A DNA stretch of 35,403 nucleotides from a virus. The translations under genes and the position numbers were made by a program. The notes under the pieces are model-generated. The model saw nothing but the letters and a program-made list of their open reading frames with translations, was not told where the DNA came from and searched no databases. This document shows, piece by piece, positions 194 through 35,087 of the stretch. The stretch is taken from IMG/VR virus record IMGVR_UViG_3300037485_000518, positions 1 to 35,403 of that record. The stretch is one strand, 5' to 3'. Within the stretch, counting starts at the first letter, position 1. Every line of letters begins with the position of its first letter.

Positions 194-1012
194 TTAGGCA
201 GCGACCCCCAGCAGGGCAGCGAGTTGGTCGCGGGACAGGCCGAGCGCGGCGATCTTCTGCGCGGCCTGAGCCTGAGCCTTGACCATCTTCTCCGCAGCCT
301 TCTTCGCCTCACGGTCATACTCATTGGGGTCGCCACCTGCGGCGGTGATGGCACCGCGCACGTTCTCGATGGCGGCTTCGAGCGCGATCTGCGCATCAGC
401 GTTGCCGGTCTGCGCCTCGTGGCGCTTGCGGCACGAGGACAGCAGGTCGCCGAGCTTTTCCATTTCATCCTTGTTGGGCTCGGGCTTGAGGCACAGCTCG
501 CTCAGCTCAGCGTCCGTGAGACGCTTTTTGGCGGCTATGGTCTTACGCGCCGAGGTAACGAGGCATTCCCAAACCTTGCGCACCTTCACCTTGTCGCCGG
601 ACGCGGCGACCTTGGCGCGCACCGTCAAGATGTGGTCGAAGTAAGTCACGGCGTCACCGATGGTTGTCATGTTCCCCATCGCGATGAGTTGGCGCAGCTC
701 GGACGTGTGCGCGGTGACGGACCCCTTCGTGTGTTGCTGGACCTTCGACGCCGACGAGATGTACTCCTCATAGATGACGGTCGCGTCATCCTTGTTCGCA
801 CTGCGCGAGCCCTTTTCCGTGTCGATGACACCGGCGTCAGCCATCTCCACCGCCGCGCGTGCCATGTCAATGAGAGCGTCCGCGCCCTTGCCTTCGAGCG
901 CGCCGAATTTGCGGACTTCTTTGATGAACTGATTGAAGAGCTTGTCGCGTCCGTTGTCGCCGGCGACGGGAGCGGAGACGGGAGCGGAGGCAGCAACGTT
1001 GATCGTGGTCAT
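194..1012 (-). CDS. Helical phage protein of unknown function (272 aa)
   Basis: I do not recognise a family. The protein is mostly charged and helical by eye, with an Ala/Pro/Val-rich N-terminus (residues 5-20), a Lys/Asp/Glu-rich middle and an Ala/Lys/Gln-rich helix ending in a hydrophobic LAALLGVAA tail. There is no signal peptide or membrane segment. The ATG at 1012 is preceded by GAAAGG (complement of 1021-1026) at 8-nt spacing, a good Shine-Dalgarno, which fixes the start. That ribosome-binding site lies inside a YTACCYNNNRGGTAR palindrome (1018-1032), with a second, N6-spaced palindrome at 1066-1081. This suggests control by whatever binds the palindrome, possibly the product itself. 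It is the only long gene on this side of the putative control region and points away from the structural block. A DNA-binding or early role is inference only. Confidence 0.8.
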   Translation of the reverse strand: MTTINVAASAPVSAPVAGDNGRDKLFNQFIKEVRKFGALEGKGADALIDMARAAVEMADAGVIDTEKGSRSANKDDATVIYEEYISSASKVQQHTKGSVTAHTSELRQLIAMGNMTTIGDAVTYFDHILTVRAKVAASGDKVKVRKVWECLVTSARKTIAAKKRLTDAELSELCLKPEPNKDEMEKLGDLLSSCRKRHEAQTGNADAQIALEAAIENVRGAITAAGGDPNEYDREAKKAAEKMVKAQAQAAQKIAALGLSRDQLAALLGVAA

Positions 1013-1017
1013 AGTGG

Positions 1018-1032
1018 TTACCTTTCAGGTAG
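1018..1032. promoter_or_regulatory. YTACCYNNNRGGTAR palindrome over the RBS of the 194-1012 gene
   Basis: TTACCTTTCAGGTAG has arms TACCT/AGGTA around TTC. The GAAAGG ribosome-binding site of the minus-strand gene starting at 1012 is contained within it, so a bound protein would block initiation or the transcript just upstream. Confidence 0.75.
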
Positions 1033-1082: not shown

Positions 1083-1108
1083 ACAGGCAAATACCTAACC
1101 AATAAGGC

Positions 1109-1136
1109 GGTGATACTGAGCGATTAGAATATTCAA
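1109..1136 (+). repeat. Iteron-like direct repeat, copy A
   Basis: This 28-bp unit begins GGTGATA and ends ATTAGAATATTCAA. It matches 1180-1207 at 24 of 28 positions, 71 bp start to start. It contains the self-complementary core GAATATTC. Confidence 0.75.
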
Positions 1137-1179
1137 GCGGGGTCACAGGGTATTGTGATAGGTTTGAATGTGGTAACCC

Positions 1180-1207
1180 GGTGATAACTAGCAATTAGAA
1201 TATTCAA
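1180..1207 (+). repeat. Iteron-like direct repeat, copy B
   Basis: This is the second copy of the 28-bp unit. It differs from 1109-1136 only at the three bases after GGTGATA and at one base before ATTAGAATATTCAA. Confidence 0.75.
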
Positions 1208-1325
1208 AGACGATTTTTTGGAGAGATAAAAAGTAGAAGCGGCTCGAACGGTTTATAGGATTACCGCGCCGATAAAATTACCGCCGCGTGCGCCGAAAAA
1301 ACCCCGGCCTCCTCAAAAACACTTA

Positions 1326-1338
1326 TGAATATTCTATT
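1326..1338 (-). repeat. Inverted third copy of the iteron core
   Basis: TGAATATTCTATT is the reverse complement of AATAGAATATTCA, which matches the core of the two direct repeats. It directly abuts the A/T tract at about 1337-1362. Confidence 0.6.
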
Positions 1339-1375
1339 TGATAGTTATATATAATATATTTTCTCTCTCTCTCTC
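1337..1375. other. A/T tract followed by a (TC)7 run
   Basis: From 1337 to 1362 nearly every base is A or T, including TATAAT at 1350-1355. Seven TC dinucleotides follow (1362-1375). No -35 element lies at a normal distance from the TATAAT, so I read this as an unwinding-prone tract rather than a promoter, with low certainty. Confidence 0.45.
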
Positions 1376-1405
1376 GCTGGCGATACTAAGATACGTGCGC
1401 CAGCG
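1375..1405. other. Inverted repeat CGCTGGCG / CGCCAGCG
   Basis: Perfect 8-bp arms (1375-1382, 1398-1405) flank a 15-nt AT-rich spacer. It immediately follows the TC run. It could be an operator, or a hairpin in an origin transcript. Confidence 0.5.
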
Positions 1406-2627: not shown

Positions 2628-2834
2628 ATGGACTTGATAAGCGCCAAAGACCTCGCGGCCCGGCTCGACGTGTCGCCCGTGACCCTTCAATATTGGCGCA
2701 GGCACGACAAAGGCCCGGCCTACGTCCGCGTCGGAAAGTCGATCTTCTACCGCCCGCAGGACGTGGAGGAGTGGATCGTCTCACAGGTGGTGAAGCCGGG
2801 GACGACCCCAACAAACCCCGAGAGCCCAGCATGA
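2628..2834 (+). CDS. Small winged-helix DNA-binding protein, AlpA/excisionase-like (HTH_17)
   Basis: Residues 3-50 follow the MerR-type small wHTH pattern of AlpA and phage excisionases. LISAKDLAARLDVSPVTLQYW supplies the helix-turn-helix, and GPAYVRVGKSIFYRPQDVEEWI supplies the wing and following helix. Such 60-75-residue proteins bind DNA as transcription regulators or as directionality factors for integrases; no integrase is seen here. The ATG at 2628 has AGGAAA upstream. The C-terminal tail is Pro/Thr-rich. The gene lies about 145 nt downstream of an extended -10 promoter and overlaps the next gene by ATGA, so the two are coupled. It is one candidate for recognising the dispersed palindromes, which is inference from its DNA-binding fold only. 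Confidence 0.85.
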   Translation: MDLISAKDLAARLDVSPVTLQYWRRHDKGPAYVRVGKSIFYRPQDVEEWIVSQVVKPGTTPTNPESPA

Positions 2835-2951: not shown

Positions 2952-4391
2952 TTAGGTCCACGCTGCCGCGCTGAAGCGTGGGGCGTCACGCCGTGGCTTG
3001 CGCTGCAGCCGGGACGCAATCATGTCGACCATGCCGCCGTGCGCGGCCAGCGCGGCGTACTGCAGCGCGTCCACGGGGTGCGAGTATTCGTTCTTGTCGG
3101 GGAGGGGCTTGCGCTGGCCGGACTTGGTCTTGCCGTACCTGTACCCCCCGCTCAGCGCCCGGTGGAGTTTGGGGCACCGCGCCTTGTCGATCAGGAAGCA
3201 CGGGTCCGGCCCGTGCGACATGCCCATGAAAGCCTCGATGGCCCTGACACGCGGGTCGATGTCGTTTGTCGGCGCGGGGAAGGCGACGAAGCCCATGCGC
3301 TTCAGCACGTCGAATGTCGTCTCTTCATAGACGCTCGACTTGGCGATGCCTGAGGGGTCGCCCACCACGGCTGCCGGACGCCCCAGATACCGCTCGTCGG
3401 CGAGGCGCGGCTTGAGCGCCCTCAGCAGGTGGAGTTCGAGCCCGATGTCTTCCGCCTCCACCTCCTCCAGAACGAGGAACCTGCCCCGGTGGTCGAGCTG
3501 GCAGATGACGCTCCACGGGTCGCGGCCGAAGTCCTGACCGATGATGAGGGGCTTGCCGGGGATGGGCATGAGCCCCTCCACCGCGTGCCAGCTCGGGTGG
3601 TAGCTCTCGCGGAACACCGCCGAGCCGGACGGGTCGTCACCGAACTTGGCGTGCACGTAGCGGCGCACCCAGTCGGGGTTCGTGTTGCGCGCGAGGCGCT
3701 CGTAGTATTTACGCCCCTGCGCCCGGCGCTCGTCGCTGTCGACGGGCAGCTTGATCGTCTCGGCGGTCTGGTTGAGCCACTCCAGATTTTCGGCGTCGTC
3801 TTCGAGCCCGCCGGGCTGGATGAATATCTGTGCGTCGGGCGGGGGCTCGGTCATGAACTTCCACCACTCCGCGCCCTCGGGTGGCATGTTGGTGTCGGCG
3901 ATGATGCCGCCCCACGTGGCGACCCCCTTGTTACCCGAGGGGTAGCGTGGGATACGGCCCGAGATCGCGGCGACGAGGTCCACGTTCATCTCGATGCTCT
4001 CCGACATCCACGCGCCCGTGAGCTGCATGGACAGCAGCCGGCGCTGGTCCTCGGGGTCTTCGAGGGGGATCATGATCCACTCGGAGCGGATGTCGCCCAC
4101 GTTGAAGTAGATGGTCTTGTCGGACACCTTCCACTCCGCGACCGCGCCGAACCACTGCAGGATGTCCTTCAGCACCGTGTCGAGGAGCTGCTTCAGCGTC
4201 TGGCGCACGATGGCGAAGCGGGTGTAGCGCAGCCCGTCCTGCGCTGGCGCCTGCTCGCTGGCGCGTCGGAACATCTCGAAGATGCAGCCCGTCGTCTTGG
4301 ACGAGCCCACCGGGCCGGCGATCAGGCGGAAGAACGCGGCGCTCGACATGAAGCGCGCGACGGTGGGGGGAGCGTCGTAGGTGAGCTTCAT
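2952..4391 (-). CDS. terL: Large terminase subunit (TerL)
   Basis: This is the ATPase-nuclease motor that cuts concatemeric DNA and drives it into the procapsid through the portal. Residues 26-33 (GPVGSSKT) form a deviant Walker A, and GAWMSESIEM (about 126-135) takes the Walker B/catalytic-Glu place seen in related terminases. The RNase H-like nuclease shows Asp287 in IGQDFG, Asp345 in VVGDPSG and Asp441 in SHPVDALQY. The length of 479 residues is normal. The ATG shares its A with the stop of the upstream 73-aa gene (TGATG), so translation is coupled. The gene is on the minus strand, opposite to all head genes, and converges on the membrane-peptide gene. A dispersed palindrome lies inside it (3931-3945). 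Confidence 0.96.
   Translation of the reverse strand: MKLTYDAPPTVARFMSSAAFFRLIAGPVGSSKTTGCIFEMFRRASEQAPAQDGLRYTRFAIVRQTLKQLLDTVLKDILQWFGAVAEWKVSDKTIYFNVGDIRSEWIMIPLEDPEDQRRLLSMQLTGAWMSESIEMNVDLVAAISGRIPRYPSGNKGVATWGGIIADTNMPPEGAEWWKFMTEPPPDAQIFIQPGGLEDDAENLEWLNQTAETIKLPVDSDERRAQGRKYYERLARNTNPDWVRRYVHAKFGDDPSGSAVFRESYHPSWHAVEGLMPIPGKPLIIGQDFGRDPWSVICQLDHRGRFLVLEEVEAEDIGLELHLLRALKPRLADERYLGRPAAVVGDPSGIAKSSVYEETTFDVLKRMGFVAFPAPTNDIDPRVRAIEAFMGMSHGPDPCFLIDKARCPKLHRALSGGYRYGKTKSGQRKPLPDKNEYSHPVDALQYAALAAHGGMVDMIASRLQRKPRRDAPRFSAAAWT
3931..3945. repeat. YTACCYNNNRGGTAR palindrome inside terL
   Basis: TTACCCGAGGGGTAG is read on the minus strand as TAC CCC TCG GGT AAC, encoding Y-P-S-G-N (TerL residues 150-154). 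Confidence 0.75.
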
Positions 4392-5189: not shown

Positions 5190-7337
5190 ATGGACCAAAT
5201 CGGGCGCGGCTTGCTGCGTGTCATCCCGCCGGCCAACTTGGAGGCCATGCTGCAGCGTGACGCCGAGGCGGGCGCAGCCGCAGAGGACGCGGCGCGTCAG
5301 TCGGAGGAACAGGTTCAGGCGCAGCTCTCGGGCTACATCGACAACCAGTTCGAGATGATGAAGCGCCACCGCAACGGGCCGAAGTCGGGGTGGAGTGATC
5401 GCCTGCTGGCGGCGCTGCGCACCTTCAACGGGGAGTACGACCCCACCCGGCTCGCGGAGATCAGGAAGTTCGGCGGGTCCGATGTCTATGCCCGCGTCGT
5501 GGCAATGAAGTGCCGGGGGGCGTCCGCGCTCCTGCGCGACGTGTACCTGTCCCCGCAGAAGCCTTGGGGGCTCGACCCGCCGGCCGACCCCGACGTGCCC
5601 ACCGAGATCCTCGCCAAGATCACCCAACTCGTCGAGGTCGAGACACGCGCGCTGGTGGCGTCCGGCGTGCAGGTCGACTTGAACATGCTGCGCGACCGCA
5701 CGATGCAGCTCATCCTCGCCGCCCGCGATGCCGCCAAGCGCAAGGCCGGGCAGCAGGCGGCGGTGTCCGAGCAGAAGATCGACGAGATCCTGACCGAGGG
5801 CGGCTTCTACAAGGCGCTCGCCGAGTTCATCACCGACCTGCCGCTGTTCCCGTTCGCGTGCATCAAGGGGCCGGTGGTGCGCATCGTGCCGCGCGTGGAG
5901 TGGGTCAACGGCAAGCCCGTGGTCCAGCAGAAGCCGCGCCTCATGTGGATGCGCGTCAGCCCCTTCGACATCTGGTGGACGCCGGGCGTCAACGACATCG
6001 AGGACGGGGCCGTCATCGAGCGCACGCGCGTCACGCGCGCCGACCTGAACGACCTGCTCGACCTGCCGGGCTACAACACGCAAGCCGTGCGCGCCGTCCT
6101 GACCGACTACGGGCGCGGCGGCATCGTCGACGACTGGGACAGCACCGACAGCGAACGCGCGGACATGGAGAGCCGCGAGAACCCGCACCTGAACCAGTCC
6201 GGCCTCATCACGTGCTTGGAGTTCCACGGCAACGTGCAGGGCTCCATGCTGCTCGAAGCGGGCATGGACGAAACCGTCATCACCGACCCGGTGCGCGACT
6301 ACTTCGTGCAGGCGTGGAAGATCGGGCGCTACGTCATCAAGGTGCAGATGTCGCCGAGCCCGCGCCGCCGGCACCCCTACTACATCACGAGCTTCGAGAA
6401 GGTGCCGGGCACCCCCGTGGGCAACGGGCTTCCCGACATCCTCAGCGACATCCAAGACGTGGCCAACGCCACGCTGCGTGCGCTGGTCAACAACATGTCC
6501 ATCGCGTCCGGCCCGCAGGTCTGGATCAACGAGGACCGGGCCGCTGACGGCGAGAACACGGAAGAGCTGTATCCGTGGAAGCGGTGGCACATGAAGGACA
6601 GCCCCATGGGAGGCGGCAGCTCGTCGCAGCCCCCGGTGGGCTTCTTCCAGCCGAACTCGAACGCGCAGGAGCTGCTGGGCGTCTACCAGCAGTTCATGAA
6701 CATGGCCGACGACCTCTCGGCCATCCCCAAATACCTGCAGGGTAATGGCACGGGCGGCGGCGCGGGGCGCACGGCGTCCGGCCTCGCCATGCTGATGAAC
6801 AACGCCTCCAAGATCCTGCAGACGGTCGCCGCCAACATCGACCGCGACGTGGTGGAGCCGGCGCTCCAGCAGCTCGTCGACCTCGTCATGCTGACCGACG
6901 AGACGGGGCTCTTGACCGGGCAGGAGCGCGTCGTGGTGAAGGGCGTGAACGTGGCAGTCCAGAAGGAGACGCAGCGGTCGCGCCAGTTGGAGTTCCTGCA
7001 GATCACGGCCAACCCCATCGACATGCAGATCATTGGGCCGAAGGGCCGCGCCGAGGTGCTGCGCGCCGTGGCCGAAACCATCGGCATGGACGGGTCCAAC
7101 GTGGTGCCCGACGCCGAGACGCTCGAAAAGATGATGCAGGCCATGAACGCGGCTCCCCCTCCCGGCCCCGAGGGAGCAGCGCCGGGCGGTGACCCCATGG
7201 GTCAAGCCGCCGCGCAGGCGCAGGGCGGGCAGCAGTCGCCGCCGGGCACGGGCGACATGGGTCCGCGCACCAACCTCCAGCAGCAGCGGCCCCAGCAGAG
7301 TTCGGGCGTGCCGCGCGTCTCGGGTGGGGTCCAGTGA
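5190..7337 (+). CDS. Portal protein
   Basis: The portal is the dodecameric ring at one capsid vertex through which DNA is packaged and ejected, and the docking point for terminase and tail. At 715 residues it has the size of podovirus portals. It follows the terminase unit and precedes scaffold and coat. The sequence has an N-terminal Glu/Gln-rich helix (about 20-60) and a stem and crown with conserved-looking blocks such as FDIWWTPGVNDIEDG (about 255-270). Near residue 510 is YLQGNGTGGGAGRTASGLAMLMNNASK, typical of this family. The tail (about 650-715) is Pro/Gly/Gln-rich and low complexity. The ATG is at 5190 with only a weak upstream GAGAG. A dispersed palindrome codes for Y-L-Q-G-N at 6731-6745. 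Confidence 0.92.
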   Translation: MDQIGRGLLRVIPPANLEAMLQRDAEAGAAAEDAARQSEEQVQAQLSGYIDNQFEMMKRHRNGPKSGWSDRLLAALRTFNGEYDPTRLAEIRKFGGSDVYARVVAMKCRGASALLRDVYLSPQKPWGLDPPADPDVPTEILAKITQLVEVETRALVASGVQVDLNMLRDRTMQLILAARDAAKRKAGQQAAVSEQKIDEILTEGGFYKALAEFITDLPLFPFACIKGPVVRIVPRVEWVNGKPVVQQKPRLMWMRVSPFDIWWTPGVNDIEDGAVIERTRVTRADLNDLLDLPGYNTQAVRAVLTDYGRGGIVDDWDSTDSERADMESRENPHLNQSGLITCLEFHGNVQGSMLLEAGMDETVITDPVRDYFVQAWKIGRYVIKVQMSPSPRRRHPYYITSFEKVPGTPVGNGLPDILSDIQDVANATLRALVNNMSIASGPQVWINEDRAADGENTEELYPWKRWHMKDSPMGGGSSSQPPVGFFQPNSNAQELLGVYQQFMNMADDLSAIPKYLQGNGTGGGAGRTASGLAMLMNNASKILQTVAANIDRDVVEPALQQLVDLVMLTDETGLLTGQERVVVKGVNVAVQKETQRSRQLEFLQITANPIDMQIIGPKGRAEVLRAVAETIGMDGSNVVPDAETLEKMMQAMNAAPPPGPEGAAPGGDPMGQAAAQAQGGQQSPPGTGDMGPRTNLQQQRPQQSSGVPRVSGGVQ
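6731..6745. repeat. YTACCYNNNRGGTAR-type palindrome inside the portal gene
   Basis: ATACCTGCAGGGTAA has exact TACC/GGTA arms and is read TAC CTG CAG GGT AAT. Confidence 0.7.
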
Positions 7338-9357: not shown

Positions 9358-10353
9358 ATGCCTTTTGGCGTCGCAACTGGCGTAACTACGCCTCCTGTAT
9401 TCCCGACTGGCAGCACGGGTAACACCCTTGCTACCAACGGGTTCATCCCCGAAATCTGGTCGGGCAAGCTGATCGAGAAGTTCTACGCGAGCACCGTGCT
9501 CTCGGCAATCAGCAACACCGACTACGAAGGCGAGATCAAAAATCAGGGCGACAAGGTGCGTATCCGCACCAAGCCCACGATCACGATCCGCGACTACCTC
9601 GCTGACGGCGCACTGACGCTTGAGCGCCCGGTCGGCAATCAGGTCACGCTGGACATCGACAAGGGCAAGTACTTCAACACGATCCTCGACGACGTGATGG
9701 AGGTCCAGTCCGACCTGAACAATCTGTCGATGTGGGCCGATGACGCCGCTCAGCAGATGAAGATCACCATCGACACGCAGGTGCTGGGCTCGACCGGCAT
9801 CCTCGGTCAGGCCAACGTCAAGAACCGTGGCGCGACGGCGGGGCAGATCACCTCGTCCATCAACCTCGGTGTGTCCTCGACGGGTCCGCTGACCGTCGTG
9901 GCGCGTTCCCCGACCGTGGGGCAGGTCGAGATCCTCGACGTGCTTCTGCGTCTCGGGCAGGCGCTCGACGAGCAGAACATCCCCGAGCAGGGCCGTTGGG
10001 TCGTCATGCCCGTCTGGGCCGCGACGTACCTGAAGTTCTCCGAGCTGCGTCAGGCGTACCTGACGGGCGACAGTGTCTCGGTGCTCCGCAACGGGCGTCT
10101 GGGCATGATCGACCGCTTCACGCTCTACGTGTCCAACCTGCTTCCGCGCGGCGCTGCTGGCGGTCTGGCTGGCTCCGAGGACGTGATCTACGCCGGTCAC
10201 GCGCACGGCCTGACGTTCGCCTCGCAGGTGAGCAAGGTCGAAACGCTGCGCTCCGAGAGCACCTTCGGCACCATCCTCCGTGGCCTGCAGGTCTACGGCT
10301 ACAAGGTGCTCGACGGTACGGCCATCGCTCAGGCCGTCGTGGTCAAGGGCTGA
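9358..10353 (+). CDS. Major capsid protein
   Basis: This is the most abundant head protein, an HK97-fold coat by position and pattern. Residues 30-60 (FIPEIWSGKLIEKFYASTVLSAIS) form the N-arm that opens many podovirus coats. KVRIRTKPTITIRDY leads into the strands, and a long helix region LDDVMEVQSDLNNLSMWADDAAQQMK (about 108-135) suits the spine helix. The end (GLQVYGYKVLDGTAIAQAVVVKG) is the familiar C-terminal strand. The length of 331 residues is normal. GGGAG at 9347-9351 is a strong ribosome-binding site six bases before ATG. Directly downstream, a 10-bp hairpin (10360-10383) may limit read-through or protect the message. Confidence 0.93.
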   Translation: MPFGVATGVTTPPVFPTGSTGNTLATNGFIPEIWSGKLIEKFYASTVLSAISNTDYEGEIKNQGDKVRIRTKPTITIRDYLADGALTLERPVGNQVTLDIDKGKYFNTILDDVMEVQSDLNNLSMWADDAAQQMKITIDTQVLGSTGILGQANVKNRGATAGQITSSINLGVSSTGPLTVVARSPTVGQVEILDVLLRLGQALDEQNIPEQGRWVVMPVWAATYLKFSELRQAYLTGDSVSVLRNGRLGMIDRFTLYVSNLLPRGAAGGLAGSEDVIYAGHAHGLTFASQVSKVETLRSESTFGTILRGLQVYGYKVLDGTAIAQAVVVKG

Positions 10354-16846: not shown

Positions 16847-19297
16847 ATGCTTCTTACTCTTCTCGGCCCCCAGCCGAGCGGGGCTATTGCTACGAAGCTC
16901 GACACGGAGACCGAGCAGCCGGCCAACAACGGTCTCACGTTCAGCAACGGGGATTTGACCGCCACGAGGGCTGTGAGCGGCGGGCAGAGCAGGGCGTGGA
17001 CGCTCGACAAGGTCGACAAAAACTACCTTGAAGCGACCCTCGACGCCACGGCTGGCGGCTGGCAGGGCGCGATTGGCCTGATCCTGTCGAACAAGGCGTT
17101 CACAAGCTGGGGTGGCGACACCGATAGCTTCGGCGTCATGGCTGACGGTGCCATGTGGCTGGAGGGCGTGTCACAGGGCGACCTCGGCGGCGACATCGGC
17201 GTCGGCGGCGTGCTCTGCATGGCCGTGGATCGGCCCAACAACCTCCTCTGGGTGCGCCACAACAACGGCAACTGGAACGGCAGCGGCACTGCCAACCCGG
17301 CTACCGGAACGGGGGGCATCAGCATCAGCGGCCTGCCCGCTGGCAACCTGTTCATCGGCGTCTATCTGGACGCGCCCATTGGCGCGGCGATGACCATTCG
17401 CCCCACGGCGGCAGAGTGGACCATCGGCGCGCCGGCCGGCTTCACGGCTATCGCTGGCACCACCTACCCCGCCTTCCCCACTGCCGGGGCGGTCGCCTAC
17501 GACGAGGTGCCGTATTCGGATACATGGACCACCGGCGGCATGGCGTGGCTGGCGGGGCAGAATGACCCCTACGGGGGCTCCCGCGCTGTCCGGTACTATT
17601 CCACGTCTGGCACTACCGGCCAGATGGGTAATCATTCCATCATATGGAACGTCTCCCACACATATACGACCGGAGAACCCTACACTGCGGAAATCGAAGC
17701 GAAGGCGGATGGCGCGCAATACATCCGCGTCTGTCACTATGACGGTGTCAACGACTGGGGCGTTATTTTCGACCTCGTCAACGGGACTGTTGGATCGCTG
17801 CGGGCGGGCGGCGGCACTGAGACGAATGCCTCGATCACGTCGCTGGGCAGCGGCTGGTATCGCTGCCGGTTCGATTTTCTGGGCGACACGACGTGGCAGA
17901 ATTACCAGCTAGCGCCGACGAACACCAACAGCACGGACTTTGACGCCAGCACGACGCTGGCCCCCGGCGACGGCATCCTCCTGTTCCGGTTCCAGACCTA
18001 TCCGGCCGTTGCCACCATCAGCGCCACGCTGAGCGCGACAGAAGCCGGCGACACGGCTGCGTTCAGTGCCAGTGCCGGCAGTGTCCTGAATGCGTCTCTC
18101 GCGGCCACAGAAGCTGGCGACACGGCGGCGTTTGCCGCCAGCATCAGCACGGGCGCTACCCTTGGGGTAACTGAGGCGGGCGACACAGCCGCCTTCACGT
18201 TCCGCCACAATATCTCGCTTGCTGCGACTGAAGCCGGCGACACGGCTGCGTTCAGTGCCAGTGCCGGCAGTGTCCTGAATGCGTCTCTCGCGGCCACAGA
18301 AGCTGGCGACACGGCTGCGTTTGCCGCCAGCGCCAGCACGAACGCTACCCTTGGGGTAACTGAGGCGGGCGACACGGCGGCAGTCAGCACCACCATTGGC
18401 ACGAACGCCTTGCTGGCTGCGACGGAAGCTGGTGACACGGCGGCGTTCGTCTTTCGTCATGACATCACGCTGGGTGCGACGGAAGCCGGTGACACGGCAG
18501 CGTTGAGCATCACGGCGCGCACGAACGCTACCCTCGGGGTAACGGAGAGCGGCGACACCGCCGCCTTCGTCGTCGACATCGTCCAGAACTACGGCTTCGA
18601 CGCAGGCGGCTTCTTCGATGGGGGCTTCAACACCCCGCCGGGCGCACGCCTCACCGCCACTGAAGCTGGCGACACGGCGGCTTTCACCTTCAGCCTCAAT
18701 GGCTCCATGGCCGCGACCGAGGCTGGCGACACCGCCGCTCTCGTCGTGGGCAACGACACGCGGCTGCTGGCGACGGAAGCGGGCGACACGGCGGCGCTGG
18801 CTACCACCAGTTCGGGCAATGCGCTGCTTGCGGTTGAAGGCTCCGACACGGCGGCGTTCTCTGCGAGCGCCCGCACCAATGCTGCGCTCGCTTCAAGTGA
18901 AGCGGGTGACACTGCCGCGATCCTTGCGAACAACGCACTTGCCATTGCTTATGCTGTAACAGAGGCTGGTGACACCGCAGCATTCGCGGTAACAGTGCGC
19001 ACTAACGTATCGTTTGCTGTTAGTGAAGCACAAGATCAAGCGGCGCTTGTCGTCTTGCCGCAGGTGCTTGGAACCTTGGCTTCGACAGAGGCGCAAGATC
19101 TAGCGTCGATTGGGTATTCGGTTTATACGTCGATCAGCTACGACGACGCAGAAGTTCTGTACGCTGACCCTGAGCAGCAACCGTTCCCGGTAGAAGCTGA
19201 GGGTGGCTACCTTGTCGTCCCGGTCGAGGTCAGGGTCATGATGAGCGATGGGTATCCCGCACCGTTCGACAGCGAGCCTCGGAGGCGACCGCAATGA
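16847..19297 (+). CDS. Repeat-rich virion fibre/tail protein with TEAGDTAA repeats (816 aa)
   Basis: Residues 1-385 form a beta-rich globular part with two lectin-like or concanavalin-like stretches (SVFGVMADGAMWLEG-like, then YTAEIEAKADGAQYIRVCHYDG...GWYRCRFDF). From about 395 to 760 there are 17 units with core ATEAGDTAAF or variants, spaced roughly 20-21 residues. An insertion near 585 holds Phe/Gly-rich GFDAGGFFDGGFNTP. The last two units degenerate to AQDQAAL and AQDLASI. The unit spacing suits a stacked beta-solenoid shaft; this is inference. At DNA level a 189-bp block is duplicated (18041-18229, 18230-18418). Three dispersed palindromes lie in the repeats. The end overlaps the next gene by 4 nt. 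Confidence 0.78.
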   Translation: MLLTLLGPQPSGAIATKLDTETEQPANNGLTFSNGDLTATRAVSGGQSRAWTLDKVDKNYLEATLDATAGGWQGAIGLILSNKAFTSWGGDTDSFGVMADGAMWLEGVSQGDLGGDIGVGGVLCMAVDRPNNLLWVRHNNGNWNGSGTANPATGTGGISISGLPAGNLFIGVYLDAPIGAAMTIRPTAAEWTIGAPAGFTAIAGTTYPAFPTAGAVAYDEVPYSDTWTTGGMAWLAGQNDPYGGSRAVRYYSTSGTTGQMGNHSIIWNVSHTYTTGEPYTAEIEAKADGAQYIRVCHYDGVNDWGVIFDLVNGTVGSLRAGGGTETNASITSLGSGWYRCRFDFLGDTTWQNYQLAPTNTNSTDFDASTTLAPGDGILLFRFQTYPAVATISATLSATEAGDTAAFSASAGSVLNASLAATEAGDTAAFAASISTGATLGVTEAGDTAAFTFRHNISLAATEAGDTAAFSASAGSVLNASLAATEAGDTAAFAASASTNATLGVTEAGDTAAVSTTIGTNALLAATEAGDTAAFVFRHDITLGATEAGDTAALSITARTNATLGVTESGDTAAFVVDIVQNYGFDAGGFFDGGFNTPPGARLTATEAGDTAAFTFSLNGSMAATEAGDTAALVVGNDTRLLATEAGDTAALATTSSGNALLAVEGSDTAAFSASARTNAALASSEAGDTAAILANNALAIAYAVTEAGDTAAFAVTVRTNVSFAVSEAQDQAALVVLPQVLGTLASTEAQDLASIGYSVYTSISYDDAEVLYADPEQQPFPVEAEGGYLVVPVEVRVMMSDGYPAPFDSEPRRRPQ
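18156..18170. repeat. YTACCYNNNRGGTAR palindrome in repeat-rich gene, copy 1
   Basis: CTACCCTTGGGGTAA is read GCT ACC CTT GGG GTA ACT. Its arms are identical to the copy 189 bp downstream. Confidence 0.75.
18345..18359. repeat. YTACCYNNNRGGTAR palindrome in repeat-rich gene, copy 2
   Basis: CTACCCTTGGGGTAA is carried by the second 189-bp unit, so it may be a passenger of the duplication. Confidence 0.7.
18528..18542. repeat. YTACCYNNNRGGTAR palindrome in repeat-rich gene, copy 3
   Basis: CTACCCTCGGGGTAA lies outside the 189-bp duplication. Its spacer differs by one base while its arms are kept. Confidence 0.75.
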
Positions 19298-21500: not shown

Positions 21501-23273
21501 ATGGTCGCTGCCAAGCTCCAAGCCTTTGGCGGCATGATCCCGGCGCAGGACGACACGCTCCTGCCCGAGATGCACGCATCCTACGCCGAGAACGTCTGGC
21601 TGCGCTCTGGCACGCTGGACGCCTTCCGCCAGCCGACCGTCGTCTTCACGGCGGGCTCGACCGCGATCACGCGCGCGTACCGCATTCCCAAGGGCAACAA
21701 GTCCAAGGAATACATCTCCGACAGCTACTGGCTCCAGTTCCAGAACGCGGACACCTGGGTCGTCGAAAGCCCCATCGCCAACGACACCTTCGGCCGGCGC
21801 TACTGGGCTCCCGACGCATTGGGGCCGCGCTACACCACGCTGGCTCGTGTCATCGCCGCCCAGACCCCTTACGTGCTGGGTATCCCCGCGCCGTCCACCG
21901 CGCCGGGCCTGTCCGTTGCCGGCGGCTCGGGCACGACGATCTCGCGCGCCTACGTCTACACGTGGGTCAGCAGCATGGGCGAGGAGGGGCCACCCAGCCC
22001 CCCGGTGGTCGTCAACGGCTTCGTCAACGGGACGTGGAACGTCACGATGACCGCGCCCACCTCGGGCGACACGACGAACCGGGCGCTCGACAAGGCGCGC
22101 ATCTACCGCACCATCACCTCGTCGGCCGGCGTGGCGACCTACTTCTTCGTCGCCGAGCTGCCCATCGCCACGACGGCCTACGCCGACACGCTGAGCGACA
22201 CGGCGGTGAGCGCCGCCAACCAACTCCAGTCGACTGGATGGACCGCGCCGCCCACCGACCTGCAGGGCATCGTCGCCATGCCCAACGGCATCCTCGCCGG
22301 GTGGCGCGCCAACGAGCTGTGGTTCTGTGAGCCATATCGGCCCCATGCGTGGCCCGTGGCCTACACCAACTCGGTCGATGCCCGCATCGTGGGGCTCGGC
22401 GTCATCGGTCAGTCGGTCGTCGTGTGCACCGAGACGGGTGCCTATCTGGCCACCGGCACGAACCCGGCCAACATCGCGCTCTCGAAGGTGGCGGGCGCTG
22501 AGCCCTGCCTGTCTCAGGGCTCGATCCTGTCGACCCCGCAGGGCGTCTACTACGCCTCCCAGAACGGCATGATGCTGGTGTCGCCCGGCGGCACGGGCAA
22601 CGTGCTGCGCAGCCTGTTCCAGTCGGACGTGTGGCAGTCCCTGTTCAACGTGCCCGGCCTGAAAGTGGCGCGTCTGGGCAACGCGCTCTTCTCGTTTGGC
22701 TCCGTGGCGACCGGCTGCTTCGATCCCGGCGCGTTCGATCCCGGCCGCTTCGAGCAGGTCGACTTCAGCGGCTCACGCGACGGCTTCTACATCGACACCG
22801 AGGACATGCGGGTCGCGCTGACGCTGCTCTACTCGGCCACGCCGACCAACAGCACATGGAACGACCCGTGGTCGGGCGAAGTGCTGTGCATGCGCAACGG
22901 GCAGGTGCTCCACTACGACACGGGCGAGCTTACCCGGCAGGTATTCAAGTGGCGCTCGAAGAAGTTCCAGCTCACCGAGAAGCGCAACCTCGGCGCGATC
23001 AAGGTCTACTTCACCGTCCCCAGCGGCACGCCTGACCTCATCACGGAGAACACGTCGCAGAGCCAGAGCGCGCTGGGTGCCAACCAGTGGGGTCTTCTGC
23101 GCGTTTACGCTGACGACCGGCTTGTCTACACGCGCGAGCTGCGCCGCAGCGGGGAGCTGTTCCGGTTACCCAGCGGGTATCAGGTCGAGTTCTGGCAGGT
23201 GGAGATCGAGGCCCGCGTCGTGGTGACCAACATCCAGCTCGGCAACACGCCGAAGGAGCTGCAGGGTGTCTGA
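21501..23273 (+). CDS. Tail nozzle / tail-tube-like virion protein (590 aa)
   Basis: The first part (FGGMIPAQDDTLLPEMHASYAENVWLRSGTLDAFRQP) is the signature start of podovirus tail-tube nozzle proteins. It is followed by a beta domain with SRAYVYTWVSSMGEEGPPSPPVVV (about 150-175), a fibronectin-like segment common to this family. A propeller-like half (MPNGILAGWRANELWFCEPYRPHAWP..., YYASQNGMMLVSPGG) comes next, and a C-terminal beta domain ends in QVEIEARVVVTNIQLGNTPKELQ. The nozzle caps the short tail channel under the connector. The stop overlaps the next gene by 8 nt. Dispersed palindromes lie at 22930-22944 and 23166-23180. Confidence 0.84.
   Translation: MVAAKLQAFGGMIPAQDDTLLPEMHASYAENVWLRSGTLDAFRQPTVVFTAGSTAITRAYRIPKGNKSKEYISDSYWLQFQNADTWVVESPIANDTFGRRYWAPDALGPRYTTLARVIAAQTPYVLGIPAPSTAPGLSVAGGSGTTISRAYVYTWVSSMGEEGPPSPPVVVNGFVNGTWNVTMTAPTSGDTTNRALDKARIYRTITSSAGVATYFFVAELPIATTAYADTLSDTAVSAANQLQSTGWTAPPTDLQGIVAMPNGILAGWRANELWFCEPYRPHAWPVAYTNSVDARIVGLGVIGQSVVVCTETGAYLATGTNPANIALSKVAGAEPCLSQGSILSTPQGVYYASQNGMMLVSPGGTGNVLRSLFQSDVWQSLFNVPGLKVARLGNALFSFGSVATGCFDPGAFDPGRFEQVDFSGSRDGFYIDTEDMRVALTLLYSATPTNSTWNDPWSGEVLCMRNGQVLHYDTGELTRQVFKWRSKKFQLTEKRNLGAIKVYFTVPSGTPDLITENTSQSQSALGANQWGLLRVYADDRLVYTRELRRSGELFRLPSGYQVEFWQVEIEARVVVTNIQLGNTPKELQGV
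22930..22944. repeat. YTACCYNNNRGGTAR-type palindrome in the nozzle gene, first
   Basis: TTACCCGGCAGGTAT is read CTT ACC CGG CAG GTA TTC. Confidence 0.7.
23166..23180. repeat. YTACCYNNNRGGTAR-type palindrome in the nozzle gene, second
   Basis: TTACCCAGCGGGTAT is read in the third frame as TTA CCC AGC GGG TAT and uses TTA, a rare leucine codon here. Confidence 0.75.
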
Positions 23274-34100: not shown

Positions 34101-35087
34101 ATCTTCAACTCGCGCCTCGGCCGCGCCACGCTGCAGTTCAAGAAGTTCGCCCAGAAGATGTACTACCTGCTGGGTAGCATCTTCGGCCGCATGCTGCGCG
34201 GCGACCGCGAGGCCATGCGCCAGTTCGCCGGCATCATGGCGACCCACATGGTCATGGCTGGCGCGCTCGCCCTGCCGCTGGAGCCCATCAAGGTGGCGCT
34301 CATGGCGGGCGGCTTCCTCGGCATCGCGCCGTTCAGCTACGACGACCTCGAAGCGTGGGCGCGCAACGCGGCCAGCGGCCTTGGCCCCACGGCGGGCGAG
34401 ATGCTGACGAGGGGCCTGCCCCGCTTCATCAACATCGACATCTCGTCGCGCGTGGGGCTCGACAGCCTGCTGACGTTCGGCGAGCCGCGCTCCAACAAGG
34501 CAGCCGACATCAAGGCGTACCTGTTCGACACGCTGGCCGGTGCTCCGATCGGCCTCGTGTTTCAGGGCTTCGAGGGCGTGCGGGCGCTCGTGTCGGCGCG
34601 CGACGGCGGCGACCTGCTGGCGGCAGCCGAGAAGCTCTCTCCGGTCAAGGCGGTCACCGACGTGGTGCGCGCGGCGCGCGGTTACACCGAGGGTAAGGTG
34701 TCAGCAACGGGACGCCAGACGATGGAGCCGCTCAGCGGCCCCGAGGCGGCGCTGAAGGCCATCGGCCTGCGCACCGGGCGGGAGGCCGAGACGACGGAGC
34801 GCCGGGACCAGTACGAGCGCCAGCGCCGCGCCGTCGACGACGAGCGCAAGAAGATCGTGGCCGACTGGGTGACCGCCAAGCCGGCGGATCGCCAGCGCAT
34901 GTGGGGCCGGGTGGAGAAGTTCAACACCGGCAAGCCGAAGGAGGCCCAGCTCTCCCGGTCGTCGCTCGATCAGGCGGTGAAGCGGCGCGAGCGGGAGCGC
35001 GAGACGGGCCGCGAGGTCGACGGGCTGCGCACGGGTCCGCGCGACAAGTACATCCTCGATCAGCTCCAGTTCTACAACGTGAGGTAA
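28164..35087 (+). CDS. Giant polyvalent internal virion protein with HELVH metallopeptidase motif (2307 aa)
   Basis: The first about 300 residues contain Gly/Ala-rich hydrophobic stretches (SIVASIVPAGLVGAALRGASVG, GVVGGVMGGAAGGLG), likely membrane or channel contacts. Long Pro/Ala/Glu linkers and coiled coils follow. At 1134-1138 HELVH is a zinc-peptidase motif, and NVEEMLAEALSN (1190-1201) supplies the likely third ligand Glu about 55 residues later. This layout is shared by peptidases in phage polyvalent proteins. The C-terminal about 900 residues are helical, with a hydrophobic segment near 2022-2055. Their style (LPRFINIDISSRVGLDS) matches the PLxRFG-type ending of such proteins as I remember them. 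It is probably ejected with DNA and may process host proteins. Six dispersed palindromes lie within it. Confidence 0.86.
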   Translation: MAEEDSFLYPTGNRAVRPEDDAVDWADWAKGIAAGAVNTAAGGAALTEYVTDGKYGGETRRYLDKTSEGIMDTTSPAFRRSANAAFLPGEGERSVWDEGIGRSIASKTIMATPSIVASIVPAGLVGAALRGASVGIRAGAAGATARGTGGALNAGDVANDIFSRIEGLSEEDLQRSDLYRGYLSMGMSPQEAREAFMQDAADYRPLVAGAISALLGGVEGQIGRRLGGEAARGVFRGAARGAGAEALQESAESGSGEFLSQDALATQGLADRDWLRVLSSTIEGGVVGGVMGGAAGGLGNIRREPAKPRAAGGVEMVETLGGDAAQTVAAKEALGATATPQVSAPAVTAPAPAAPPPAAPPPAQAAQASTETTVPEPAETLQSQIKDLADGRRPAVLLPKDLKTADRPPRPNGDFATYGIEGVGTFYYDPKKVSARQLRAAAREGRLNEVLGMASTSKVDAAQAVAAGAEPGVVQVRDEQGTPKVEAATSSATVAQDASQIAAQAAPTDTVQITTPEAVIAERKARRAAKPAPAPAAAPPVPPSIEEVEADPSKNPYVTEPVYQPEEGTIPGAKLLTEGDNPFAKREPATSQVAERPKRVLESVTPDATAIQIATREQQELNERDMRNQRRREQRAAAGPVGDTNTTRVKERNENSEKAAQAIQRFPADEAETQVAMSKGQKAADREARQAARNSIQARARAMVNTAVELGYQFPERVKAAVAAKNEPAVRFLQTARALANSPNPKSKLIEQFLNDERLARGGTEQDFTMLQEAARQQAAESGKLPNRGQPVNAKNEEVDTGEESAGVEDLKSRQQTEDNLLTAIEMKRQGLSEDDTAAAEAITKEPEEAPKPRTSRSQPATFKRTADEYAEIERRARRVTVQQRWAARNAERKARAEAKAKKVAAEVRRAAVTPQVDPQQEREAAIAKEASDIELQLRSAGVVFAPERLRAMAEKSVDQRAKDREDKATREREAAESTRKDTARQTRLKVQADTAAEWEKRLADEGLLAMSAEEAGLTELDEHSEVFSDRGLQMPTKSRVYGATVLREATAADVLDRLDLSAFTLNNAPVLRAVAGKLREFVGKTKVYVISDAHMRRINYNWAGFYHPTFNYVVVRESEVVKGPRRWAHVVLHELVHAATIDALKNDPQVRADAELIFEHLLNIHGDKLARDVGIDRDGTVRQLYGFSNVEEMLAEALSNSQFQRWLGNTRLLPTTARQLGLKNPTASIWQGIVQMVRFAFGLKPDVHSALEGIMDVAGRAFEANGRPRSFGHISSDLAGIDASALQQEATQQVKASTTNLRGRLRRAGDYLSTTMMLARRARDLFTGTDAPDRVANINEMIRTYKDRYLDKPGGGTQTVGRLAELQRKYGAESKEWGQFADLAHDLTVNNVNVGNGRDNTHLGQDDTAGWQAKERLPDLERRFDELPEDLQRALVSSSEFFRTTQNDESRQLINNILDAAGLNQPGLADKIMDNGLTEEEADKLGIKDTPVTRALRDARSLRSIGGMYFPLMRRGNFVVNGRVSFDTPTDALRVDDETVQFVSLKGSDAKARKKARNFVRGHDLTALDVRKVWVDKNDPSEIIPAEDVDAVPAYRVRLQTQHTQFVETEAEAQAVAKELTDSGIGEVRWSIRQNSDGSVAGELTPTQMRTLVNSLQQRKGFKDLSDGGKRQLVRALEDATLRLMASNRLQTKRIPRRNVAGYSTDVLTNAAQYAQSAANYMAQLVHAPKLNAAMKDMRDYIKKYEEEKDNRHNRRRELYNELERRVYDDSADAPPTTADNAINRLLQASSLARLAGVSYHLINSLEPGMVALPYLSGRHNPARVMAAMTRAYNRIGARSALGSGLRDTWHARREDTGFTNYVDLFKQSMRGDANAARYGELLDRLHDIGLLDREAGFEVQRQANPAGNALGRGLDRATLMSRQVGAAIEAINRSVVALTAYDLEMTRPGATHESAMRYAEDAVHDTAGNYSTSNAAPIFNSRLGRATLQFKKFAQKMYYLLGSIFGRMLRGDREAMRQFAGIMATHMVMAGALALPLEPIKVALMAGGFLGIAPFSYDDLEAWARNAASGLGPTAGEMLTRGLPRFINIDISSRVGLDSLLTFGEPRSNKAADIKAYLFDTLAGAPIGLVFQGFEGVRALVSARDGGDLLAAAEKLSPVKAVTDVVRAARGYTEGKVSATGRQTMEPLSGPEAALKAIGLRTGREAETTERRDQYERQRRAVDDERKKIVADWVTAKPADRQRMWGRVEKFNTGKPKEAQLSRSSLDQAVKRRERERETGREVDGLRTGPRDKYILDQLQFYNVR
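28187..28201. repeat. YTACCYNNNRGGTAR palindrome at start of giant gene
   Basis: CTACCCCACGGGTAA is read TAC CCC ACG GGT AAC, residues 9-13 of the giant protein. Confidence 0.75.
29176..29190. repeat. YTACCYNNNRGGTAR palindrome in giant gene
   Basis: CTACCCCGCAGGTAA is identical to the first copy in the scaffold gene. It is read GCT ACC CCG CAG GTA AGC within an Ala/Pro linker. Confidence 0.75.
29929..29943. repeat. YTACCYNNNRGGTAR palindrome in giant gene
   Basis: CTACCTCGCAGGTAG is read GCT ACC TCG CAG GTA GCC. Confidence 0.75.
32035..32049. repeat. YTACCYNNNRGGTAR palindrome in giant gene
   Basis: CTACCCAGCAGGTAA is read GCT ACC CAG CAG GTA AAG. Confidence 0.75.
33608..33622. repeat. 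YTACCYNNNRGGTAR palindrome in giant gene
   Basis: TTACCTCTCGGGTAG is read TAC CTC TCG GGT AGG. Confidence 0.75.
34163..34177. repeat. YTACCYNNNRGGTAR palindrome in giant gene
   Basis: CTACCTGCTGGGTAG is read TAC CTG CTG GGT AGC. Confidence 0.75.

Follow-up and report, generated by a model that had tools for sequence, protein, structure and literature searches.

Inverted repeats at the first early gene and dispersed palindromes suggest two layers of putative control in podovirus-like phages of Rhizobiales

The non-coding DNA upstream of the first early gene of this podovirus-like phage holds three copies of an AT-rich element of ~23 bp, two facing left and one facing right, and a second motif, a gapped palindrome, is scattered along the entire record. 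Judged from their sequence, the repeats are probably binding sites for a protein that controls the early genes or starts the copying of the DNA, and the dispersed palindromes look like a genome-wide off switch. For the clade as a whole it is tentatively suggested, as a combined model that we regard as doubtful in its full extent, that palindromic, lineage-drifting stoperators (~1 per kb in most members, within and between genes) are served by a putative repressor, and that early transcription is coupled to the start of replication by an inverted iteron complex, itself evolving fast, at that gene which comes first in the early block. The best-known examples of dispersed, genome-wide repressor sites come from Cluster A mycobacteriophages, and the model, if true, would give a second, independent-looking case, palindromic this time and in phages of nitrogen-fixing bacteria. 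The array at the first early gene is in addition a defined place in which to seek an early promoter or an origin.

The window, by which is meant the entire virus record of 35,403 bases, is without end repeats and is probably a genome fragment. The DNA comes from a phage of podovirus-like type that has relatives in Rhizobium phage RHph_TM3_14A (W01) and in phages of Bradyrhizobium assemblies, the closest named phages being Rhizobium phages RHph_TM27A, 27B, 29 and TM3_14A (~61 kb); HMO-2011-type podoviruses are distant kin, with likeness in portal, terminase and capsid. RHph_TM3_14A has the early gene and the dispersed palindromes in common with the window phage, and the window contains no match to the replication block of that genome and no tRNA gene that could be found. 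A search with a terminase profile led to relatives in two Bradyrhizobium assemblies, and a search for prophages with the portal protein found none. Many conserved phage genes were matched on a Bradyrhizobium phage contig of 60,568 bases; its early gene lies at 36.1 kb, and an integrase domain was located near one end, at 59,997-60,461. The second contig, which was read in part, is 61,049 bases long. The Bradyrhizobium contig of L047 and L048-L051 (G014:C42) resembles a near-complete phage of the clade, with an integrase close to one of its ends and 11-bp TAGCGTTACC-type repeats at both. The clade is a newly recognised group of podovirus-like phages of soil bacteria (Rhizobiales).

Table 1. Features of the window and of related loci. 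Positions refer to the window unless a locus is named.
Feature	Position	Strand	Remarks
Repeat copy c1, leftward	1103-1136	-	TTGAATATTCTAATCGCTCAGTATCACC on minus strand; 82% identity to c2, 71 bp apart
Repeat copy c2, leftward	1174-1207	-	Contributes 1184-1206 as an arm of the inverted pair
Repeat copy c3, rightward	1326-1348	+	Second arm, 119 bp from c2
GC-richer core between inverted arms	1207-1325		80-119 bp across the seven loci with the pair
A/T-only tract	1345-1362		Within the window's most AT-rich 60 bp (1315-1374)
(TC)7 run	1362-1375		In relative L023 a CT run adjoins its arm
8-bp inverted repeat CGCTGGCG/CGCCAGCG	1375-1405		Arms 1375-1382 and 1398-1405
Palindrome TACCTTTCAGGTA	1019-1031		Just upstream of early-gene start codon, over likely ribosome-binding site
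Palindrome TTACCTAGCAAGGTAA	1066-1081		N6 spacing, dispersed type
Set of 23 exact TACC-N5-GGTA, genome-wide	160-34176		First 160-172, last 34164-34176
Conserved first early gene	194-1012	-	Orphan all-helical fold, 272 aa; most relatives with a contig that extends there have a homolog
HTH_17 / excisionase-like gene	2628-2834	+	Far end of slot
Terminase large subunit	2952-4391	-
Portal-like protein	5190-7337
Major capsid protein	9358-10353
Internal virion protein	21501-23273
Tyrosine integrase gene in slot	L010:9214-10263	-
Tyrosine integrase gene in slot	L015:10067-11122	-
Tyrosine integrase gene in slot	L023:9945-11006	-
tRNA-Lys-like 3' half beside HTH_17 gene	L003:5990-6045	-
tRNA-Lys-like 3' half beside HTH_17 gene	L011:10740-10800	-
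Winged-helix protein EVB41_062	L024:8055-8369		Candidate DNA binder; orthologs in several relatives

The repeats sit in a 1.6-kb non-coding slot between the first early gene and the HTH_17 gene (Table 1). In several relatives a slot bordered by homologs of these two genes lies downstream of the terminase gene, and in RHph_TM3_14A the homolog of the early gene is close to the start of the early block. The AlphaFold model of the early gene product is all-helical (mean pLDDT 77.5), and a fold search with it gave no solved-fold match and two viral predicted matches only; a search of viral contigs with the early gene as query found no relative, the homologs described here having come from loci fetched via the terminase. 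One sigma-70-type match, at 2576-2603, was present in the slot, at chance level.

Every element that the original prediction had listed in this stretch was located: two 28-bp direct repeats, an inverted third core, an A/T-only tract, a (TC)7 run and an 8-bp inverted repeat. The direct repeats, at 1109-1136 and 1180-1207 (24 of 28 positions identical, 71 bp apart), extend to 34 bp at 82% identity as copies c1 and c2, and the inverted copy is larger than a core, since the 23-bp arm c3 pairs with 23 bp of c2. Scores of 19 for the direct repeat, against a null maximum of 14, and of 18 for the inverted repeat, against 12.5, were reached in none of 400 dinucleotide shuffles of 1013-1500, and the arm pair is the sole inverted repeat in the whole window that passes the scan's score threshold with arms 40-160 bp apart. 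The core GAATATTC was found at 1127, 1198 and 1327 within the first 3 kb of the window, and no match to TTAGAATATTC with up to two mismatches occurs elsewhere in the window.

Upstream of this gene, inverted AT-rich arms at the spacing given in Table 1 are found not only in the window but also in L005, L015, L016, L018, L021 and L023, with arm-pair scores of 15-21 against null maxima of 10-12.5, and in G000, G005, G006 and G007 the pair is the strongest inverted repeat of such spacing in the whole record. The arm sequences are unlike one another across lineages, for example TTATTCTTTATTCTTTATTTT in L023 and TTATTGTACAAATTGTACAGA in L021, with a motif in common to L005, L015 and L016, and in most loci the arms are made of sub-repeats of 6-9 bp. 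A third copy outside the inverted pair is present in the window and in L005/L041/L042. Comparison of the close pair L040 and L041/L042, the latter two being identical in this region, indicates no change in either arm or in the core of the third copy, and the adjoining bases differ. Given that the arms are kept while their neighbours drift, and that their sequences are specific to lineages, they are read as putative protein-binding sites whose binder would co-evolve with them. No inverted-arm pair was found in L003, L004, L007, L011, L014, L022 or the Bradyrhizobium phage contig, nor upstream of the early gene in RHph_TM3_14A, where a weak candidate lies downstream of the gene. The original prediction was to be judged in part by whether close relatives lack the repeats, and here sequence and architecture part ways: GAATATTC repeats are absent from RHph_TM3_14A and no matching repeat family was found in the relatives, but the architecture was found in six others. 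A pattern that recurs with unrelated repeat sequences is as expected of an origin or a regulator array that evolves fast. Among windows ranked by repeat content the slot comes first in G006 and G007 and is among the higher ones, at 15-18 of 349-603, in the others; in G005 three tandem 21-bp repeats (CACATAGTTTTGCCACAATCG) stand upstream of the early gene (L034:11550-11612).

It is suggested that the array is a control region for the early genes, a reading to which we give slightly less than an even chance. The three AT-rich copies would be sites for a DNA-binding protein, and we infer that protein bound to c2 and c3, on either side of the ~100-bp core, may loop or wrap the DNA next to the AT tract into a complex that would in turn control transcription of the leftward early genes, beginning with 194-1012. 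A second layer would be provided by a separate repressor-like protein whose target, TACCY-N3-RGGTA, occurs at the first early gene and roughly once per kb elsewhere; such a protein, once bound, might shut the early genes and act as a roadblock to elongation in the manner of a stoperator. The array had originally been put forward as a possible origin, with a regulator-binding array as the alternative, and this alternative fits at least as well as the origin.

The origin itself, at which an initiator would bind the iterons and open the AT tract as in lambdoid phages, is possible but clearly falls short of probable. What stands of that proposal is that the iteron-like repeats beside an AT tract are real and that relatives show the pattern again in front of this gene. 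The repeats and an AT-rich region are both present and adjoin one another, the slot is rich in repeats in relatives, and the cores are palindromic (GAATATTC, and TTGTACAA in G006). The AT content over 60 bp peaks at or beside the early gene in five genomes out of six, and in the remaining one the second-highest peak falls there, but AT-richness would be expected anyway of a slot that is non-coding. In the complete genome of RHph_TM3_14A the cumulative GC-skew has its minimum at 17.1 kb, adjoining the slot, whereas G006 has a maximum there and not a minimum, and the strand of the genes switches at the slot; the GC-skew check proposed at the outset thus finds extremes near the slot in two relatives, albeit of opposite sign. 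Furthermore, no known initiator family was found, and the product of the adjacent gene is without a solved-fold match. The likeness to the lambdoid replication origin (PMC7466680) lies in repeated sites that adjoin an AT-rich tract; unlike that origin, the array described here has inverted arms ~100 bp apart, is non-coding and lies upstream of a gene unlike known initiators. Control of the early genes and origin function could both be true.

The palindrome was spotted by eye before an unbiased scan, in which TACC-N5-GGTA ranked first in the window among all gapped palindromes with arms of 4-6 bases, with 23 exact occurrences against 0.07 expected. All 23 conform to TACCY-N3-RGGTA, the N3 centre being preceded by a pyrimidine and followed by a purine, and TTACC-N5-GGTAA with one mismatch allowed occurs 26 times against 0.14 expected, a count reached in none of 100 shuffles. 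Of the six clade genomes, five have a TTAC-type motif as their highest-ranking gapped palindrome and G001 has one among its highest, and the motif takes genome-specific forms (GTTACCT-N6 type in RHph_TM3_14A, TTACC-N6 in G006, TTACCT in G007, TTACTT in G005 and TTACCC in G001), with a spacer of five or six within one genome. No report of the palindrome in these phages was found in the literature searched, whose coverage of them is thin. Counts with per-genome cores are 30 to 81 per record, or ~1 per kb, and a single fixed pattern gives 27-81 sites in the clade against 6-17 in reversed sequence, with the smallest excess in the Bradyrhizobium phage (27 against 8). With the same fixed pattern phiM6, HMO-2011 and CRP-1 have 12-19 sites against 7-17 in reversed sequence, and in an unbiased scan of 50-kb portions of these three the palindrome was not the top motif. 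Three near-identical palindromes of the dispersed type, at 18157, 18346 and 18529 (~185 bp apart), fall inside the gene at 16847-19297, where repeats are denser than anywhere else in the window.

In 14 of 14 loci the 90 bp that precede the first early gene contain a site with no more than one mismatch; the single-locus random rates for these loci range from 0.003 to 0.195, and two of them, L005 and L041, are close relatives; L011 and L014, with uncertain start codons, were left out. In RHph_TM3_14A, the genome for which enrichment at gene boundaries was computed, 43 of 61 sites are inside genes, 21 lie within 25 bp of stop codons (4.5 expected) and 15 within 25 bp of start codons (4.6 expected). 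Sites are spaced more evenly than random in RHph_TM3_14A and G006, not in the other four of the six records. Given that some palindromes overlap ribosome-binding sites, and that the inner pair on the coding strand of G005 is more often T..G than C..A (23 against 7), the TACC palindromes might be RNA hairpins and not DNA operators. This is improbable for two reasons: first, C..A, which is unpaired in RNA, is about as common as T..G in the window (5 against 6) and in RHph_TM3_14A (4 against 3), and an inner pair that is undepleted in this way favours a site on double-stranded DNA. Second, the spacer may be five or six in one genome.

As putative DNA operators, the palindromes invite comparison with the stoperators of Cluster A mycobacteriophages (L5, Bxb1, Trixie; PMC6550527), which they resemble in being genome-wide, in the drift of the motif, in the presence of some sites at an early promoter and in having relatives that are probably temperate. 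Many similar sites across the phage genome are indeed present in the clade; an asymmetric site oriented with transcription is not, as the sites here are palindromic and a strand bias was seen in G005 only. They differ from the published stoperators in being palindromic, usually with N5 or N6, at ~1 per kb in most genomes and largely without strand preference, and the clade consists of podovirus-like phages of Rhizobiales, not of mycobacteriophages. The SPBRE of SPbeta is likewise a dispersed repressor site, of ~15 bp, first found by sequence alone, and its binder MrpR was identified much later than the site (PMC10516654); SPBRE sites are reported in promoter and intergenic regions, whereas most sites of RHph_TM3_14A are inside genes.

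A search for CI-like and HTH_3 repressors gave nothing over the cut-off in six clade genomes, and no repressor was recognised among the genes scanned in the window, itself a fragment. In RHph_TM3_14A, G001, G005 and the Bradyrhizobium phage the DNA polymerase gene is followed by one for a protein of ~100 residues, which has no Pfam match and is modelled as a winged helix similar to the DNA-binding domains of response regulators (SaeR, Foldseek E 0.026, TM ~0.5). On the strength of this model the protein is a candidate binder of the palindromes. In G006 no winged-helix gene was found beside the polymerase. Because each relative carries its own variant of the site, such a system, if real, would permit a direct test of the co-evolution of site and repressor.

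Two further explanations of the array are less likely than an array of protein-binding sites. The inverted arms might form a long RNA stem, as part of a structured leader of ~150 nt or of a small RNA, since they remain complementary despite the sequence differences between lineages and folding z-scores range from -2.75 to -6.73. We consider this quite unlikely: the z-scores add little because the stem formed by the arms dominates the folds, the arms are internally repetitive, a search of Rfam gave no match, and the reading is weakened by the third copy, which lies outside the stem in the window and in L005/L041/L042 and is needless for it. That the element is the attP of a tyrosine integrase, with the arms as arm-type sites, is very improbable and was rejected: an integrase gene does occupy the same slot in L010, L015 and L023 and an excisionase-like gene borders it, but G005 and G006 possess the element and no integrase was found there, the sub-repeat period is 6-9 and not ~11, and attP-like sites stand elsewhere in relatives, namely, in L003 and L011, a tRNA-like 3' half by the HTH_17 gene and well away from the early gene, and an integrase with 11-bp arm-like repeats at the contig ends in the Bradyrhizobium phage.

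In the window itself the genes scanned contained no integrase domain, and the first 2.95 kb no tRNA T-arm-like core; among the other genomes, W01, G001, G005 and G006 gave no integrase either, and the window is a fragment. The tyrosine integrase in the slot of some relatives indicates that the clade probably includes temperate phages, and the window phage, whose close relatives include integrase carriers, is probably temperate as well. The 3' halves in L003 and L011, which we take to resemble tRNA-Lys, are likely attP sites. A strongly repetitive protein with ADLRNADL-type repeats is encoded at L029:14029-14643, the top repeat window of G001, and in L003 the tRNA-like half is flanked by 25-nt direct repeats at 5936-5960 and 6189-6213.
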